Positions 4,881-35,105 of a stretch of 42,325 nucleotides of DNA are shown here, piece after piece. Numbering within the stretch: the stretch's first letter is position 1; each line of letters starts with the position of its first letter. The stretch is from Myxococcales bacterium (GTDB lineage: Bacteria; Myxococcota_A; Polyangia; Nannocystales; Nannocystaceae). The stretch covers positions 1-42,325 of the forward strand of contig JAAZXR010000035.1 in assembly GCA_014240065.1 (NCBI GenBank), read 5' to 3'. The position numbers and the translations under genes were made by a program. The notes beneath the pieces were generated by a model. The model was not told where the DNA came from and made no database searches. It saw only the letters and a program-made list of their open reading frames with translations.

Positions 4881-5035
4881 CCTGACCCAGGGTCTTTTCA
4901 CTTTTTCCGATAAAACGATGTAAGGGAACGATGTAGGGTGACAGCTGCCGCGAATTCGTGAACGACCCTGGGACGGGACTCTGGACTCTGGACTCTGGGA
5001 CTCTGGGACTCTGGGGACGGGACTCTGGGGACTCT
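4881..5035 (-). repeat. REPIN-like element copy B with microsatellite-like flank
   Basis: In minus-strand orientation it has the same layout as copies A and C: TCCCGTCCCAGGGTCGTTCA (near 4959-4978), core CCCTACATCGTTC (4926-4938), and right arm AAGACCCTGGGTCAGG (4881-4896). The left arm is extended by a degenerate array of ACTCTGG/GGGACTCTGG units from about 4977 to 5035. It occupies the spacer between two divergently transcribed lipoprotein genes, so it is close to both promoters. Confidence 0.78.
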
Positions 5036-5255
5036 GCTGCTCTGGAGGTTCCTGAACCGGGGACGGGATCAAGATTCCAACACGAGCCCCCGCCAGGACT
5101 CCCAGGGCGAGGGCAGCCGCGGATGGATCCGGTCTGCGGATCCACGAGGCTCCCGAGCCGACCGCGGCCCCAGGGAAACGCGGAAATCAGGAAACGGCGG
5201 GCTCGTCGTGGTTGAGGATTGACAAGCGCCCCAATTGGGAGCCAAGTAAGAGCCT

Positions 5256-7064
<1,809 letters not shown>

Positions 7065-7123
7065 TCGGGCCCTCCCCCACGAAACACCCGACCCGAAACA
7101 GCCGACCCGATGTGAGATCCCAT

Positions 7124-7254
7124 CCCAGGGTCGTTCATGAGATCCTGAGATCCCGTCCCAGGGTCGTTCAGGAATTCCAGGGTCGTTCAGGAATTCCCGA
7201 TATCTACCGCCCTACATCGTTCTGTCGTGAAAAGTCAGAAGACCCTGGGTCAGG
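7124..7254 (+). repeat. REPIN-like element copy C, left arm triplicated
   Basis: Three left arms, CCCAGGGTCGTTCATGA (7124-7140), CCCAGGGTCGTTCAGGA (7157-7173) and CCAGGGTCGTTCAGGA (7178-7193), precede the core CGCCCTACATCGTTCTGTCG (from 7208) and the inverted right arm AGACCCTGGGTCAGG (7240-7254). After it, AGAGTCAGG units continue to about 7276. It lies downstream of the FG-GAP gene and upstream of a small unknown gene. Confidence 0.8.
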
Positions 7255-7371
7255 AGAGTCAGGAGAGTCAGGAGAGTTGGGTCAGGAAAGTTGAAGGTTG
7301 AAAGTTGGGACAGTTAGTTGGAACTTACAAAGTTCACTACCCTCGCACCTGAGGGAGCGGCCGGCGCCACC

Positions 7372-7851
7372 ATGAATCGAGATGAAAGAAAAACAAGCGA
7401 TCCCCGCGACCGCATGATGGGACAGATCGCGGAGGGCGTGGACGAGAGCGCTCCCCTCGATCACACAGGCAAGAGCGTCCTCGCTCGCGGATGTGACCCC
7501 CAGATGGCGGTGCGGGCCTCCACGATGCTCCCCCCACACCTCGGCAGCCCCACCTTCGTGTCAGCAACCTCCGACGATGATTTTCTCGCGAAGCTGCAGC
7601 GTGAGCGATGGTCCGTCGTGTTCTTCGCGCCCGGCGCGTGTCGCTATGACGCGGCCAACAAGCCGATCCCCGGAGGCAACGCGCAGACCCACGGGTGGAC
7701 CTTGGCGCGGTACCGTGACGTGGTTCGAGAGCACCAGGGCGACGACGTACAGATCGTAGAGACCCCTGACGAGCGGGAGATCATCCCGCTGCTCCGCCGA
7801 GCGCTCGCTCGCGCCCGCGACGCCGACTCGACGCCGCGTCCGCCCACCTAG
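7372..7851 (+). CDS. Conserved-looking protein of unknown function
   Basis: This is a predicted soluble cytoplasmic protein of 159 residues with no signal peptide or membrane segment. The ATG at 7372 is preferred over a TTG 54 bp upstream; a weak purine stretch GAGGGAG lies 15 nt before it, and an ATG-ATG pair at 7414 is an alternative. The first ~60 residues are polar and Met/Asp-rich. The second half contains a WSVVFFAPGACRYD segment that looks like the beta-strand/loop of a small alpha-beta domain, with a lone Cys, then DVQIVETPDEREIIPLLRRAL, a likely strand plus helix. I recognise no family. A degenerate thioredoxin-like or receiver-like fold is only a guess. It converges with the GH2 gene, with 8 bp between stops. 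Confidence 0.5.
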   Translation: MNRDERKTSDPRDRMMGQIAEGVDESAPLDHTGKSVLARGCDPQMAVRASTMLPPHLGSPTFVSATSDDDFLAKLQRERWSVVFFAPGACRYDAANKPIPGGNAQTHGWTLARYRDVVREHQGDDVQIVETPDEREIIPLLRRALARARDADSTPRPPT

Positions 7852-26645: not shown

Positions 26646-28036
26646 ATGCTCATCGATTTCCTTGAGTCGCCATCCTCCCCCTCGCCTTCGGCGCGCTCTT
26701 CGCCGCGACTCCGGCGACCGCGAAGCCGAAGGCCGCGCCGATCACCCTCGACCTTCCCGTGCAGTCATTCACCCTCGAGAACGGGCTGCGGGTGTTTGTG
26801 GTCGAGGACCATTCAACCCCCGCCCTCGCCCTCACCCTCTTCTACGACGTCGGCGCCGCGGACGAGGTCCCCGGCAAGACCGGGCTCGCGCATTTCTTTG
26901 AGCACATGATGTTCATGGGGTCTGAGAAACTTCCGCGCTTCGCCGTCATGGAGAACACCAAGAACGCGGGAGGAGACGCGAACGCGTTCACCACAGCGGA
27001 CATCACGGTCTATCTCCACACGATCCCGTCGAACTATCTCGACATGGTGTTGTGGGGCGAGGCAGACCGACTCGGCGCCCTCACCATGACCGAAGATCTG
27101 TTTGAAGTACAGCGGGCCGCGGTGATCTCCGAGAAGGACAGACAGGGCAACCAGGCGTTCGCATAAATCATCCAGACGCAGTACGTCCCCGACCTCATGC
27201 CCGGCTCGCCGTACACCCACGAAGTCATCGGTACCGATGAGGACCTGGCCGCCATGACCCTCGGTGACGCGCAGCGCTTCTTCGATCAGTACTACACGCC
27301 CCAGAACGCGATCATGGTCCTCGTGGGCGACCTCGACTTTGAGAACGCGCGCGCGCGCGTGACCCACTACTTCAAAGACATCCCACGAGGTTCGCAACGA
27401 CCCTCCAGTCCCACGCTGGCACCCACGACCGATCGCGTTCGTGCCCATGTAGAGCGTCGCGTAGAGGACCCCCTCGCCCAACAACGGCTGATAAGAATCG
27501 GGTGGCGCACCGTGTCATTCGACGAAAAAGACCGCGCGGCCCTCGATGTGCTGGGCGCGATCCTTGGTGGCGGAAAAACATCGAGGCTGTACCGTCGATT
27601 GATCGATGACGACCCCGTCGCCACCGTCGCGTTTGCGGGCCATGAGGCGCAACGATACGACGGCGGCCTGTCGGTCATGCTGCTCCCACTGCCAGGGGTC
27701 AGCGCCGAAGTTATTCGCGATCAAGTGCTCGCGGAGATCGAGACGTTAAAGAAGCGCGGCCCCACAACGAAGGAGCTCGACCGCGTGCGCCGCCAACGCC
27801 TCACAGGTACGTTATTCGGCCTGTCCACGAATCTTGGACGAGCCATGGGGATCGGCCAAAGCGTGATCATGGGTGACGACCCGAAGTTGTTCATTCGGAT
27901 GCTCGAACAGCTCGACACGATCACCCCGAGAGACGTGCAACGGGTCGCCAAGAAGTACCTCGATGAGAATTTCGTCATGTACGAGATCGTCCCGGAGGAG
28001 AACAAGAGCCCGGCGCTCCCTGGCGTCATCCGATGA
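26646..28036 (+). pseudogene. M16 family zinc peptidase (insulinase-like), interrupted
   Basis: One reading frame encodes an M16 peptidase but is broken. The zinc motif HFFEH is intact in TGLAHFFEHMMFMG (about 26883-26924), and the second half shows the usual YYTPQNAIMVLVGD and the inactive C-terminal domain ending at 28036. A TAA at 27164-27166 stops translation after NQAFA, and the same frame resumes immediately with IIQTQYVPDLM, so a single substitution explains it. At the 5' end the signal peptide-like LPLAFGALFAATPATA is in frame with the body but has no start codon, because a TGA lies at 26663-26665. An ATG at 26646 (MLIDFL) would join it after a one-base deletion. Two lesions suggest decay, unless there is sequencing error. 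An internal restart at 27197 would lack the zinc site. Confidence 0.8.
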
Positions 28037-29245: not shown

Positions 29246-30103
29246 TCAGCCCTGCAACACCGCGAGGATCGCGTTCTTGACGTTCGCGTAGCCCTCTTCC
29301 GTGCTCATATTCGTCGAGATGTCGCCGCCGGGGGCGATATAGTCGGCCAACACGCCCTCGGCGTCGTAGATGTACAGGGAGTCTTTGATCCCACCTTGCT
29401 GGGCCCAGAGGTCGTTGCCTTCCATCCCTTGGAACAGCGGAAACGAGCAACGATCCGTGAGTTGTGCCTGATACTCAGGCGCCTCGTACCCCACCTGGTT
29501 AAGCCCGGCGAAGTATACCTGGTGCCCTTCGAGGTCGAGCTCGATCCTCAGCTCCTCAAATTTGCTCGCCTGCCCTTGGCAGTAGCCGCAGGTGGCCCGC
29601 CACAGCACGACCACCGTCACCGTGCCGAAGAAGGCGTCTTGCAACCCATAGGTTGCTCCGTAGTTGCAACTGTTTGGTTGAAAGTCTTCGGCCGTCCACC
29701 CGACAAAGCTCGCCCCGATGGCCGTGGGGTCTTCCACGTCGCCGTCTCCGTCGCCGTCGCCGTCTCCGTCGCCGTCTCCGTCGCCGTCTCCGTCGCCGTC
29801 TCCGTCTCCGTCTCCGTCGCCGTCTCCGTCCCCATCGCCGTCTCCGTCGCCGTCTCCGTCGCCATCTCCTGCCCCGAGCGCCGGCGGTCCAACACACGCC
29901 CCCTCATCTGCGCCCATGGTGTCACCCGCGTCCATCCCGTCCGTCATCGCGCCGTCCGACGAGGTCCCCGGTGACACGGACGTCGCGGTGTCGGCTCTGT
30001 CCGACGCCCCACACGCGGGGAGCACCAAGGTCAGCAGCGCGGGGACGAACAATCCCCGGATTCCAGCCCATCGGGGCTCTTGTCGATCGTTTAAGTTATC
30101 CAT
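29246..30103 (-). CDS. Thioredoxin-like (redoxin/AhpC-TSA-like) lipoprotein with long Gly-Asp linker
   Basis: This is a 285-residue exported protein. The ATG at 30103 starts a signal ending LVLPAC (Cys31); the frame is open to 30313 but the leader looks non-coding. Residues ~79-122 are 22 consecutive Gly-Asp pairs, encoded by ~132 bp of 6-bp repeats at 29738-29869. The folded part has VVVLWRATCGYCQGQ, with the redox pair C172-G-Y-C175 in the place of the thioredoxin active site, then SFPLFQG and LYIYDAEGVLADYI, typical of TlpA/redoxin strands. Extra Cys residues are at about 146 and 219. The next gene, 6 bp downstream, is a cytochrome c-rhodanese, so this protein probably exchanges electrons or sulfur with it (inference). 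It resembles the WCGPC lipoprotein at 2356 in layout. Confidence 0.87.
   Translation of the reverse strand: MDNLNDRQEPRWAGIRGLFVPALLTLVLPACGASDRADTATSVSPGTSSDGAMTDGMDAGDTMGADEGACVGPPALGAGDGDGDGDGDGDGDGDGDGDGDGDGDGDGDGDGDGDGDGDGDGDVEDPTAIGASFVGWTAEDFQPNSCNYGATYGLQDAFFGTVTVVVLWRATCGYCQGQASKFEELRIELDLEGHQVYFAGLNQVGYEAPEYQAQLTDRCSFPLFQGMEGNDLWAQQGGIKDSLYIYDAEGVLADYIAPGGDISTNMSTEEGYANVKNAILAVLQG
29738..29869 (-). repeat. In-frame 6-bp tandem repeat encoding (Gly-Asp)22
   Basis: On the minus strand GGCGAC and GGAGAC/GGGGAC units alternate without interruption for about 132 bp. Because the unit is 6 bp, slippage changes linker length without breaking the frame. Equivalent but shorter arrays occur in the lipoprotein genes at 2500, 4620, 5445, 40990 and 42195. 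Confidence 0.9.
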
Positions 30104-30194
30104 GGCGAATGGGTCGAAACCTCGATGCGCAGAGGATACCGCAGCCGCGCAGGCACGCCTAGGGGCTCCCCCCCCACGCCCACGGAGCGCCGCG

Positions 30195-31325
30195 TCATCC
30201 GCAGGCGGGGCTGCCAAGGCGTCGCAGATGGCGATAGTGAGAGCGCAACGCGCCACGCAGGGTCGGCACGCAGTGGTACGGCGCCCCAAACTCCCGCGCG
30301 GTGTCTCGCACAATCTCCGCGAGCGCCGGGTAGTGGGTGTGGCTGATCCGCGGGAACAGGTGGTGCACCGCTTGGAAGTTGAGGCCCCCGACGTACCAGG
30401 TCAAGAGTCTGTTGTTCGGGGCAAAGTCCGCCGTGGTCTGAAGCTGGTGCGCCGCCCAGTCCGCGTTCATGGCGCCATCCTCCGGTGCGGGCGCGGGGAA
30501 CTCCACCTCCGTCACGCAATGCGCCAACTGGAACACGACCGAGAGCACCACCCCCTGCACAAACATGACGAACGAAAACATCCCCAGCACGACCAGCGGG
30601 CCATGAAACACGAGCGGCACCCCCAGCGCGAGCGTGAAGAAGAGGAGCTTCCCGCCGAAAAATACAGCGAGCTCCATCCCTTTGGGGCGTGGGATCGTGG
30701 TGTAGCCGACCCTCCCGGTCACGAACGTCATCCAGTCGTCGTACAGAAACCACTTGGGCATGATGAAGCCATACAGCGGCCACATGTACAGATGCTGAAA
30801 GCGATGGAGCGCGCGCCGCGGCTGGGCGGGTGACAACCGGGCGAACACGGCTGTGTCGATGTCGTCGTCAAAGCCGTCGATGTTCGCGTAGGTGTGATGC
30901 AACACGTTGTGCTTGTAGTTCCACACATACGAGCTCGCGCCGAGCAAGTCCACGACCCGGAACGTCCATCGATTCACCCACCCGTGTCGAGAATAGGCGC
31001 GGTGTCCCCCGTCGTGCATGATGCTGAAGCCGGCGCCGGTGCACGCCAAGGCCAACGAGGTCCCTACGAGCACAGCCAACGGGGCGCTCAACTCCGCGAA
31101 CACGAGCGTTCCCCACGACGCTGCGATCCACGACAAGATAATGAGCCCCTTGAGATACAAGCGCGGGTCGTCACGCTTGGCGATTCCCCGAGCCGCGAAG
31201 TGATCGTTCACCCGGGCGTTCAAGGTCTTGAAGAACGCGCCGCTCGGGGCGAAGGTGGGGTGGCCCCACGACGAAGGGGGCGAGGTTGGGACGCGGACAC
31301 GGGCGGACACGGGCGGGGCGGACAT
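30195..31325 (-). CDS. Fatty acid desaturase (acyl-lipid, front-end-like)
   Basis: This is a 376-residue membrane di-iron desaturase. The three His boxes are present: HDGGH (104-108), HNVLHH (139-144) and QAVHH (318-322). Gln in place of the first His of box three is typical of front-end (Delta5/Delta6) desaturases, although the cytochrome b5 domain found in eukaryotic ones is absent. Hydrophobic segments lie at about 58-100 and 220-265, with the boxes on the cytosolic side. The ATG is at 31325. The expected reaction is O2-dependent double-bond insertion in a phospholipid or CoA acyl chain. Some myxobacteria make polyunsaturated fatty acids by desaturation, which fits. The gene stands alone, divergent from the DNA methyltransferase and 92 bp upstream (on the same strand) of the redoxin-like gene. 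Confidence 0.92.
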   Translation of the reverse strand: MSAPPVSARVRVPTSPPSSWGHPTFAPSGAFFKTLNARVNDHFAARGIAKRDDPRLYLKGLIILSWIAASWGTLVFAELSAPLAVLVGTSLALACTGAGFSIMHDGGHRAYSRHGWVNRWTFRVVDLLGASSYVWNYKHNVLHHTYANIDGFDDDIDTAVFARLSPAQPRRALHRFQHLYMWPLYGFIMPKWFLYDDWMTFVTGRVGYTTIPRPKGMELAVFFGGKLLFFTLALGVPLVFHGPLVVLGMFSFVMFVQGVVLSVVFQLAHCVTEVEFPAPAPEDGAMNADWAAHQLQTTADFAPNNRLLTWYVGGLNFQAVHHLFPRISHTHYPALAEIVRDTAREFGAPYHCVPTLRGALRSHYRHLRRLGSPACG

Positions 31326-31742
31326 GGGGAAGACTCGAATCAGCGTCGATGGTGGCGCGCTGAGATGGGGTCACGGTCATCGGTTCGAGCCGACGTGCCA
31401 AGGCAAGACCGGCGCCGTGACGAAGGTATGACCCTGCGGAGACAAATCCGCGACCCCGTAAGGACGTGACCAGCCGCCCTCCCCGGCATCTCACCGACGC
31501 GGTGCGCAATCACGTTCGCGCTCGCGTGTGCGGCGGTCTCTCCGCGAAACAACGAGCCCCTCCGCGCCGGCGCGCACCAGCCCTAGAGCGGGCTTTGACT
31601 TTTGGGTGCGGGCGTGGGGCACTTGGGCCGTGGGGCCCTCGACAGATCGTGTCGCGACAGTCAACGCGTCGCTCCCGTCGAGCGGGCGACGCTCCCCCCG
31701 CCCCGGTCTTCCCACGCATGGTGGCCGACAAAGGAGGGAGCG
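31326..31742. other. Divergent intergenic region between desaturase and DNA methyltransferase
   Basis: This 417-bp stretch has no convincing gene. It contains short GGACACGGGCGG direct repeats near 31295-31320 at the desaturase end and a strong ribosome site, AAGGAGGGAG at 31731-31740, for the methyltransferase. Promoters for both genes should lie here; no clear -10/-35 pair could be picked. Confidence 0.55.
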
Positions 31743-34607
31743 ATGAAGCACCTGCGACCGGCGGACGCGCACGGCCTGCGCCTGCCGGAGTCCTTCGTCG
31801 TCAAGGCGACGGGGCGCTACTACACGGCCATGCCCATCGCCGCGCGCATGTGCAACGAGGCCATCGGCGCCTGGACGCGAGCTGATTTCGTCACCGGTCA
31901 ACAGCTTCGCCTCGCGGACCCCTTCGGAGGCGACGGCCGCTTGATCGCCGCGTGGATCCGCGCGTGGGCGCAGGCCCGGCGCCCCACGGTCAAGTGGCGA
32001 ATCACCGCTTGGGATCTTCACGAGGAGGGCTTGACCGCGGCCGCCTCCCAATTTGAGGACCTTCGCGTGGAGACTGGGCTCGACATCCGATGGGAGCTCG
32101 AGGTCGGCGACGCATTTTGTCTCGCGCGCACAAGGGCGAAGTCGTTCGACGTGCTGGTCTCAAACCCCCCGTGGGAGCTCCTCAAGCCCGACCGCAGAGA
32201 ACTCAAGCTGCTTCCGACCGAGCTCGCGACCTCCTATGTGGACGCCATGCGCGACTACGACGACTTCCTCGCGCGGGCCTACCCCCTCGCCCAGCCCTCC
32301 CGTAAATTCGCTGGATGGGGCACGAACCTCTCGAGGGTCGGCTTCGAAGCGTGTCGAAACCTGGTCCGCGACGACGGCGTCATGGCCGTCGTCATGCCCG
32401 CTTCATTCATGGCCGACGACCTGTCCACGCCGCTGAGACGCGACGTGCTCCGTTCGTCTTGCGTGCGCGCGATCACCTACTACCCGGCGGAGGCGCGGCT
32501 GTTCGAGGGCGCCGACGTCGCCACGATCACCGTGGTGGTAGAGCCGACCCCGGCGCCGAGCATCACCCCCACGCTCACCCGGCTCGATGACGCGCTCGGG
32601 CTCGCCTCTCGCCGCGCGCTCCGACTCACGCTGCCACTGCTCGAAGCCACCGGCTACGTGATTCCCGTGTCGATGGGGGGCGACGCCATGGACGTGCTCA
32701 CGCGGCTAAGCGAGGCCTTCCCAACGTGGGCCAAACTCGAGGGATCCGAATCTACGGCGCTCTGGGCTGGCCGCGAGCTCGACGAGACCCGCAGCCGAGA
32801 CTGGCTGTCGAACGACGCCGCGGGGCCGTGGTTCATCAAGGGGCGCATGATCGACCGCTTCGTCGTCAAGGAGACGCCGACCCAACGCGTCGCCAAGGTC
32901 GGATGGGTGGCGCCCCCGTCCACCGCGTCCACGCGCATCGCGTGGCGTGATGTGTCGCGACCGAGTCAAACACGCCGCGTGATCGCGACGCTGATCGCCC
33001 CTGGCGTCGCCGCGGGCAACTCCCTGGGCGTCGCCTACTTCAAAGACGACGCCCCGCAGCCGCTCCATGCGCTGTTGGGGATCATGTCGTCGCTGGTGTT
33101 CGAGTTTCAGCTCCGCTGTCACCTCGCGACGGGGCACGTCTCGCTGTCCTCCCTCCGGAAGGTGCGGGTGCCGTCGCGAGAGCGCCTCGAGCGCCTCACG
33201 GAGGTTTCCGATGAGGTCGAGGCGTTGCTCGCCGACCCCGAGCGCGACCAAGCCCGACTCGAAGCGCTCGTCGCCATCGACGCCTTTGGTCTGAGCGAAC
33301 AGGAGCTGGTCGCGCTCATGAACGCGTTCCCGCGGCTCTCCCTGCCCCGGCGGGCGGCGATTCTCCGAGAGTATTGTGCGCTCGTCCGAGCCGACGCCCC
33401 GTCCCCCAAGCGGGCCCCCGCCCACCACCAAATTCCCAATCACGCCTCGGCCCGACTAAGCGAACTGGACCTGCGCATGGTCCGCGCCGTGCCGCAAGGG
33501 GGGAACTGGAAGGACATCCCCGAATCGGTCCCCTCCAAGCGCCTCGACCAAATTCGCGAGAGCTTTCGCCGCGGCGAGGGCAGCCGGTCCACCTACTACG
33601 GGCGCCTACGCGCCGACCGGCCCTCCTACACGATCAACACCTACTTCAACCGGCCGGGGAACGGATGCCATATCCACCCGACCCAGGATCGAGTCTTGTC
33701 TCGGCGTGAGGCGGCCCGGCTGCAGAGCTTCCCAGACCGTTTCCGGTTCGTCGGGCCACAGACCGTCGTCAACAAGCAAATCGGCAACGCGGTCCCGCCG
33801 TTGCTCGCCTACCAGCTCGCGGGCACGCTCGGCACCCCGGGTGTCTTCGTCGACCTGTTCTCCGGGGCAGGCGGGCTGGGCCTGGGCTTTCGCTCAGCGG
33901 GTTGGCAGCCCCTCGTCGCCAATGACATCGAACCACGGGCGCTGCAGACCTACCGCCTCAACGTGCACGAAGACACCATCCTTGGAAGCCTCGCGGACCC
34001 CACGATTCGATCCCTGGTGGTGGCGGCGGCGACACGACTCCGAGCGGCCCATCCAGCTGCGCCCTTGTGGATCCTCGGAGGCCCCCCGTGCCAAGGATTT
34101 TCCACCGCAGGCCGCGCGAGGACCATGGACGATCAGCGCAACCTGCTGTTCCACAGCTACTGTGAGATCCTCGACGCGCTGCGACCCGATGGTTTTGTGT
34201 TTGAGAATGTAACCGGCCTCTTGAATATGCGCGGCGGCGAGGTCTTCGCGCAGGTCAAGGAGGCCTTCGCTGCGGTCATGCCACGGGTGGAGGGGTGGGT
34301 GCTGTCGGCGGATCACTACGGCGTGCCGCAGCGACGCAAGCGGGTCTTCCTTGTCGGCGCCACGGCCCCGACGATCGCGTTGGACCCCCCGCCCCCGATC
34401 ACCGCGCACGACGACCAGCCGCCGGTGACGGTTGAGGAGGCCTTCGGAGACCTGCCGCCCTTGACCACGAATCAAGACGGCGTCTCGTCTCCGTACACGA
34501 CGGCCCCCCGAACGATGTACCAGGCGCTGATGCGGGGGCTGATGACCCCCCATGAGTACGTCGAGCACCTCCGCGCCGGACGTCGCTACCGACTCTTAGC
34601 GACCTAA
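31743..34607 (+). CDS. Fused DNA methyltransferase: adenine-type domain plus circularly permuted C5-cytosine domain
   Basis: This is a 954-residue protein. The ATG at 31743 follows AAGGAGGGAGCG, an optimal ribosome site. Domain 1 (about 1-560) is a gamma-type N6-adenine methyltransferase: AdoMet motif DPFGGDG (59-65), catalytic SNPPW (140-144), then a long TaqI/Eco57I-like recognition half. Domain 2 (about 575-954) is a C5-cytosine methyltransferase with motifs in permuted order: recognition/motif IX (QGGNWKDIP, RPSYTINTYF near 628), motif X (GNAVPP, 681-686), then motif I (VDLFSGAGG, from 703), IV (PPCQGF, catalytic Cys783), VI (ENV, Glu821), VIII (QRRKRV, from 863). All catalytic residues are intact. 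From memory, adenine/cytosine fusions occur in the Alw26I/Eco31I/Esp3I family, which modify an asymmetric site on both strands, and permutation is known in M.BssHII. No endonuclease gene is adjacent. Confidence 0.9.
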   Translation: MKHLRPADAHGLRLPESFVVKATGRYYTAMPIAARMCNEAIGAWTRADFVTGQQLRLADPFGGDGRLIAAWIRAWAQARRPTVKWRITAWDLHEEGLTAAASQFEDLRVETGLDIRWELEVGDAFCLARTRAKSFDVLVSNPPWELLKPDRRELKLLPTELATSYVDAMRDYDDFLARAYPLAQPSRKFAGWGTNLSRVGFEACRNLVRDDGVMAVVMPASFMADDLSTPLRRDVLRSSCVRAITYYPAEARLFEGADVATITVVVEPTPAPSITPTLTRLDDALGLASRRALRLTLPLLEATGYVIPVSMGGDAMDVLTRLSEAFPTWAKLEGSESTALWAGRELDETRSRDWLSNDAAGPWFIKGRMIDRFVVKETPTQRVAKVGWVAPPSTASTRIAWRDVSRPSQTRRVIATLIAPGVAAGNSLGVAYFKDDAPQPLHALLGIMSSLVFEFQLRCHLATGHVSLSSLRKVRVPSRERLERLTEVSDEVEALLADPERDQARLEALVAIDAFGLSEQELVALMNAFPRLSLPRRAAILREYCALVRADAPSPKRAPAHHQIPNHASARLSELDLRMVRAVPQGGNWKDIPESVPSKRLDQIRESFRRGEGSRSTYYGRLRADRPSYTINTYFNRPGNGCHIHPTQDRVLSRREAARLQSFPDRFRFVGPQTVVNKQIGNAVPPLLAYQLAGTLGTPGVFVDLFSGAGGLGLGFRSAGWQPLVANDIEPRALQTYRLNVHEDTILGSLADPTIRSLVVAAATRLRAAHPAAPLWILGGPPCQGFSTAGRARTMDDQRNLLFHSYCEILDALRPDGFVFENVTGLLNMRGGEVFAQVKEAFAAVMPRVEGWVLSADHYGVPQRRKRVFLVGATAPTIALDPPPPITAHDDQPPVTVEEAFGDLPPLTTNQDGVSSPYTTAPRTMYQALMRGLMTPHEYVEHLRAGRRYRLLAT

Positions 34608-34652
34608 GCTATCGTGACGTCGCCGGGCCGCCCGCGCTCGGACGTGATCCAT

Positions 34653-35105
34653 ATGCCCGCGACCATCCGAAACATCCTCGCCGTAATGGGAGGGCTCGCC
34701 GTAGGCATGGCCATCAACATGGCCATCATCAAGATCAATTCCTCCGTCCTCTTCCCGGCGCCACCCGGCGCCGACCTCAGCGACACGACGCAGTTGAAGG
34801 CCTACGTCGCCACGCTGCCCGCGTCGGCGTTCTTGGTGGTCATGCTCGCTCACCTCGGGCAGTCCTTCGTCGGCGGCTGGATAGCGGCTCGCGCCGGTGC
34901 TTCGAGGCCGATGCTCCTGGCGATGATCGTCGGCGCGGTCTCACTCTACGGCGGCCTCATGATGATGATGGAGATCCGAGGGCCCACATGGTTCGCCGTG
35001 GAGTTACCCTTGTACCTGGTGGTGGCGTGGCTCGCTGGCGGCATCGAGCGCCGCCGCCGCGCCGCGCAGACTCCCGCCGAGCCCTCGCCGTCTGCGTCCA
35101 CCTGA
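34653..35105 (+). CDS. Small integral membrane protein, unknown function
   Basis: This is a 150-residue protein with four hydrophobic helices (roughly 7-32, 60-85, 90-112, 118-140) separated by short loops; the C-terminus is Arg-rich then Pro/Ser-rich, likely cytosolic. The ATG at 34653 is chosen; a GTG at 34614 would add 13 polar residues. Small polar residues (Gly, Ser) inside the helices and the motif AHLGQSFVGGWIAAR resemble small four-helix proteins of unknown function that I have seen in Bacteroidetes and Myxococcota, but I cannot name a family. It begins 45 bp after the methyltransferase and may share its transcript, yet nothing suggests a restriction role. Confidence 0.75.
   Translation: MPATIRNILAVMGGLAVGMAINMAIIKINSSVLFPAPPGADLSDTTQLKAYVATLPASAFLVVMLAHLGQSFVGGWIAARAGASRPMLLAMIVGAVSLYGGLMMMMEIRGPTWFAVELPLYLVVAWLAGGIERRRRAAQTPAEPSPSAST

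Follow-up and report, generated by a model that had tools for sequence, protein, structure and literature searches.

The window (the whole stretch of DNA that was analysed, 42,325 nucleotides) harbours at positions 31743-34607 of the plus strand an open frame of 954 codons with no stop inside and with the codon pattern of a coding gene. The ATG at 31743 is backed by a likely ribosome-binding site, AGGAGG, at 31732-31737 (+). Matches to TIGR02987 and PF00145 identified the 954-residue product as an adenine methyltransferase fused to a permuted C5-cytosine DNA methyltransferase; all features of this gene given below lie on the plus strand. The flanking genes are ordinary host genes coding for a desaturase, a small membrane protein, a SAM methyltransferase and a DEAD-box helicase. 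Elsewhere in the window, the minus strand (29246-30313) codes for a redoxin-like protein in which GDGDGD is repeated over a long stretch, a low-complexity acidic linker. An M16-type peptidase (26759-28036, plus strand) seems to be divided between two frames, one at 26759-27166 and the other at 27197-28036; a frameshift or an assembly error may be the cause.

The adenine half (residues 21-544, 31803-33374) was delineated with TIGR02987 and the structural model as a gamma-class enzyme with its own recognition part. The match covers profile positions 1-520 of 523 with 391.9 bits, above the curated cutoff of 353.5 bits. By this near full-length match, the HMM comparison that the first-pass annotation had proposed for the adenine part, the adenine half is a member of the Alw26I/Eco31I/Esp3I adenine methyltransferase family. 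The SAM-binding motif DPFGGDG is located at residues 59-65 (31917-31937) and the catalytic motif NPPW at residues 141-144 (32163-32174). The predicted structure resembles M.BseCI, CamA and M.TaqI, and the PADLOC profile for the lone adenine half (PDLC03365) covers residues 18-542 with 450 bits.

A junction or linker of residues 545-561 (33375-33425), placed from the model and the relatives and with low model confidence at 552-562, is followed by the C5 half (residues about 562-945), in which the motifs are arranged in the order IX-X-I-IV-VI-VIII. Its first part (residues 562-625, 33426-33617) was recognised by alignment with canonical enzymes as the recognition-region segment NH...PQGGNWKDIP...YGRL, still joined to motif IX. 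Motifs IX and X (RPSYTI ... REAARLQSFP ... GNAVPP; residues 626-697, 33618-33833), with RPSYTI starting at 626 and GNAVPP at 681, are located by sequence, rotation and alignment ahead of motif I, VDLFSGAGG (residues 703-711, 33849-33875). Then come motif IV, PCQ (782), with the catalytic Cys783 (34086-34094), motif VI, ENV, with Glu821 (34203-34211), and motif VIII, QRRKR (residues 863-867, 34329-34343). The conserved C5 blocks are all present, including the catalytic Cys and Glu. All motif positions of the first-pass annotation were recovered at the same residues in both halves, and with them its statement that the catalytic motifs of both halves are intact.

The permuted order was clearly visible in profile searches. 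In native order, the Pfam profile PF00145 matched in two stretches (1.7e-56, 192.5 bits), the best of which aligned residues 702-879 with profile positions 3-167. When the residues were rotated, a single stretch covering profile positions 3-322 of 324 was obtained, with 197.9 bits versus 192.5 in native order. The PADLOC profile for the lone permuted C5 enzyme (PDLC03381) matched residues 563-942 in one stretch (profile 8-390 of 396, 1.1e-147, 490 bits), and the profile for the fused protein (PDLC03237) matched residues 131-909, also in one stretch. The Pfam rotation, TIGR02987 and PADLOC together bear out the initial claim of a complete, permuted C5 domain fused behind an adenine methyltransferase in one chain. 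On the strength of these matches, a fused permuted layout by chance can be ruled out.

The position of the break had to be revised. Alignment with canonical enzymes places the cut between MRG..EYVEHLR, where the motif VIII side ends, and the NH...PQGGNWKDIP...YGRL segment, which stands ahead of motif IX in canonical order and in the window protein alike. The cut thus separates motif VIII from the target-recognition region; the position first suggested, which would separate that region from motif IX, does not hold, although the recognition part has indeed come to lie next to the adenine half, as was also stated. A few residues (about 698-701) link the natural C-terminus to the natural N-terminus. 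The new N-terminus agrees, as judged from the alignment, with the published Type H class of permuted C5 enzymes, within a scheme whose H/J class assignment is somewhat arbitrary (PMC5944983). A structure prediction of the C5 half, also proposed at the outset, gave an AlphaFold2 model with a pTM of 0.87; in most of motifs IX/X and I the pLDDT is about 89-97. These values indicate that the C5 half would form one compact domain. The Foldseek match of the C5 half to M.HaeIII and M.HhaI comprised only ~185-205 columns; the method is sequential and cannot follow a permutation, and an alignment confined to the motif I-VIII half is what the permuted order should give.

Both features of the protein have published precedents. 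A permuted order is known for M.BssHII, M.Alw26I, M2.Eco31I, M.Esp3I and M2.BsaI (PMC5944983). The modification enzyme of Esp3I/BsmBI is a gamma adenine methyltransferase fused to an m5C methyltransferase, while Eco31I/BsaI have two separate methyltransferase proteins (PMC3874165). Since permuted order and fusion have both been published, the Esp3I/BsmBI restriction systems already provide the single-chain layout, and the window protein adds another member. The first-pass annotation named M.BssHII as a precedent for permutation and the Alw26I/Eco31I/Esp3I family for fusion; the combination of the two is on record as well.

By published description (PMC3874165, PMC5944983), the window protein is like M.Esp3I/M.BsmBI in having one chain with the adenine half first and the permuted cytosine half second, and the single-stretch match to the fused-type profile PDLC03237 adds to this likeness; it differs in that no endonuclease was found here. 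It is also not the nearest relative of the fused proteins found here, of which those of Lactococcus, Enterococcus and one phage contig form a separate, fully supported group. Each of its halves fits best with the separate-protein profiles (PDLC03381, which we infer to stand for M2.Eco31I, and PDLC03365), a likeness to M1/M2.Eco31I and M1/M2.BsaI, whose two methyltransferases are separate proteins where the window has one chain. M.BssHII works as a C5 methyltransferase on its own and is not known to carry an adenine half. By description, it shares with the window protein the same general break, in the variable region (PMC5944983).

Relatives of the protein were found in three arrangements. Fused proteins are encoded on plasmids of Lactococcus (L072) and Enterococcus (L073) and on viral contigs L088, L089 and L091. 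Separate neighbouring genes for the adenine and the permuted C5 enzymes were detected in six records (L026, L069, L070, L075, L087 and L090); there the two frames meet at the junction point of the window protein, overlapping or a few bases apart, with start/stop overlaps of ATGA in L026 and L075, ATGACTAA in L069 and TGATG in L070. Lone permuted C5 genes, with neither adenine half nor endonuclease in those records, occur in the Thermus phage phiLo (L074) and in IMG/VR viral contigs L084, L085 and L086. These lone phage enzymes are the closest relatives of the C5 half, with an identity of 67% for L084 (the closest of all), 62% for L085 and 58% for L086. E. coli plasmid CP054241 has a separate permuted C5 gene that is 57% identical to the C5 half and matches PDLC03381 end to end with 968 bits. 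Residues 521-544, with which the adenine half ends, resemble the N-terminal stretch of the lone enzyme of L084 (4854-6191) at 50% identity (E 0.09), so that this enzyme may be what is left of a fused ancestor.

Further observations were made on individual records. The small Roseomonas plasmid L070 (CP099480.1, 3517-6809) carries genes for a Vsr endonuclease, an adenine and a permuted C5 methyltransferase, the last one seemingly frameshifted; the TIGR02986 endonuclease was not found in it. In three viral contigs (L092:4938-7124, L093:2363-4576 and L094:1-2334), a single frame contains a head-to-tail pair of complete canonical C5 methyltransferases, with copies 37-43% identical. A tandem C5 pair is the intermediate required by the permutation-by-duplication model; these three are more simply read as two enzymes that were fused long ago. 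In L150, one frame (5917-7374) displays motifs IX/X, then I-VIII, then IX/X again, and the frame upstream (4950-5951) holds I-VIII, which is probably a tandem C5 pair interrupted by a frameshift.

The order of permutation and fusion was addressed with trees of both halves; for the C5 tree, canonical relatives were cut and rejoined to the permuted order. In the C5-half tree, the permuted proteins occupy one side of a branch with a support of 90/87 (100/99 without long branches), which is consistent with a single permutation among the sampled sequences. The fused state requires three changes on each tree (C5 half and adenine half), at least two of which are made unavoidable by the well supported branches of the smaller C5 tree, a count in which gain and loss are not distinguished. 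According to the first-pass annotation, fusion and permutation may have happened together; as a rival reading, this would mean a single event that made a new enzyme layout. Every fused relative found is indeed permuted, but permuted enzymes are also common in the unfused state, both as the six pairs of separate genes and as the four lone phage genes; moreover, M2.Eco31I and M2.BsaI are permuted (PMC5944983) while the Eco31I/BsaI methyltransferases are separate (PMC3874165). The AU test rejected a single fused clade for the C5 half (p 8.7e-11, or 8.9e-5 without long branches) and for the adenine half (p 6.4e-29). The joint origin is rejected by the unfused permuted relatives together with the AU tests, and we give it hardly any credence. 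As far as these trees reach, permutation preceded fusion, and fusion was gained or lost several times.

For the window protein itself, an independent fusion is the simplest reading, suggested by the affinity of its halves for the separate-type profiles and by the position of its C5 half among lone or separate genes in the tree. Its nearest neighbour is L084 for the C5 half and L090 together with L070 for the adenine half, L084 having no adenine half. With neighbours differing between the two trees, some exchange of halves is possible.

The genomic setting was examined for a restriction partner. A TIGR02986 endonuclease was not found in the window or in the organism's own genome (4.7 Mb, 97.7% complete, 235 contigs), while the same model, as a positive control, detected the endonuclease in the relatives' records with 1e-95 to 1e-175. 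The direct neighbour at 34614-35105 was considered as a partner and rejected: 11 of 29 family genomes, own genome counted, contain relatives of it, a spread that the methyltransferase does not have, and it is therefore regarded as a host gene. Vsr mismatch repair, as an m5C companion, was likewise not found in the own genome. Full-length relatives of the methyltransferase were missing from the other genomes of the group searched, the sole full-length match being in the own genome, and only one of 379 phylum genomes, the own one, contained a TIGR02987 protein above cutoff (the window protein). From this isolated occurrence, the gene was probably acquired by horizontal transfer. A comparison with an empty site via the flanking desaturase gained nothing from synteny, as in two family genomes the homologues and the membrane gene are on different contigs. 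The GC3 of the gene (0.84) is similar to that of its neighbours, and this points to an acquisition that was not recent or to a source of similar composition.

In view of these results, we consider it quite probable that the protein is a solitary, horizontally acquired modification enzyme of the Alw26I/Eco31I/Esp3I family, with adenine and permuted C5 methyltransferases in one chain. It could instead belong, as the modification half, to a Type IIS restriction-modification system that still works, with an endonuclease that escaped assembly or has diverged beyond the reach of TIGR02986. Relatives usually do have the endonuclease, near the methyltransferase genes in the loci read, and an assembly in 235 contigs leaves room for a gap; yet the 31 kb upstream and 7.7 kb downstream carry ordinary host genes, the direct neighbour is widespread in the family, and the model that readily detects the endonuclease of the relatives gave no match in the own genome, which makes such a system decidedly improbable. 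The same low probability is assigned to a decaying gene with one or both halves inactive. Related copies do decay: the Alw26I-like system of E. coli plasmid L071 (CP088711.1) is interrupted by many stops, the adenine gene of E. coli plasmid L069 (CP054241.1) is fragmented next to an intact cytosine gene, and three phage-contig relatives are without the adenine half. Against decay of the window gene stand its 954 stop-free codons, the intact catalytic motifs of both halves, the ribosome-binding site and the coding-type codon pattern. Slightly less remote, though still unlikely, is a double methyltransferase fused independently of Esp3I/BsmBI, set free and retained by a member of this phylum without endonuclease, either to regulate through two marks (m6A and m5C) or to confer immunity to related restriction enzymes.

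In the solitary family enzyme that we prefer, each half has its own SAM site and its own recognition part, and each would flip its own target base. By analogy with the characterised family, the two halves are predicted to share a short asymmetric site, probably one with the family core GTCTC/GAGAC, where the adenine half would methylate A in one strand and the cytosine half C in the opposite strand. Marks on A and C in opposite strands of one asymmetric site are described for Alw26I, Eco31I and Esp3I. At present, the protein may serve for self-protection, as a leftover of a restriction system that was lost, or for immunity to related restriction enzymes; without an endonuclease, the protein may be a still-harmless remnant, a shield against such enzymes or a regulator. 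As a solitary enzyme for two bases, it could also conveniently serve to label the two strands of a single asymmetric site. For the family, one permuted C5 type is now seen lone in phages, overlapping or abutting with its adenine partner, and fused, and the order of events becomes testable.
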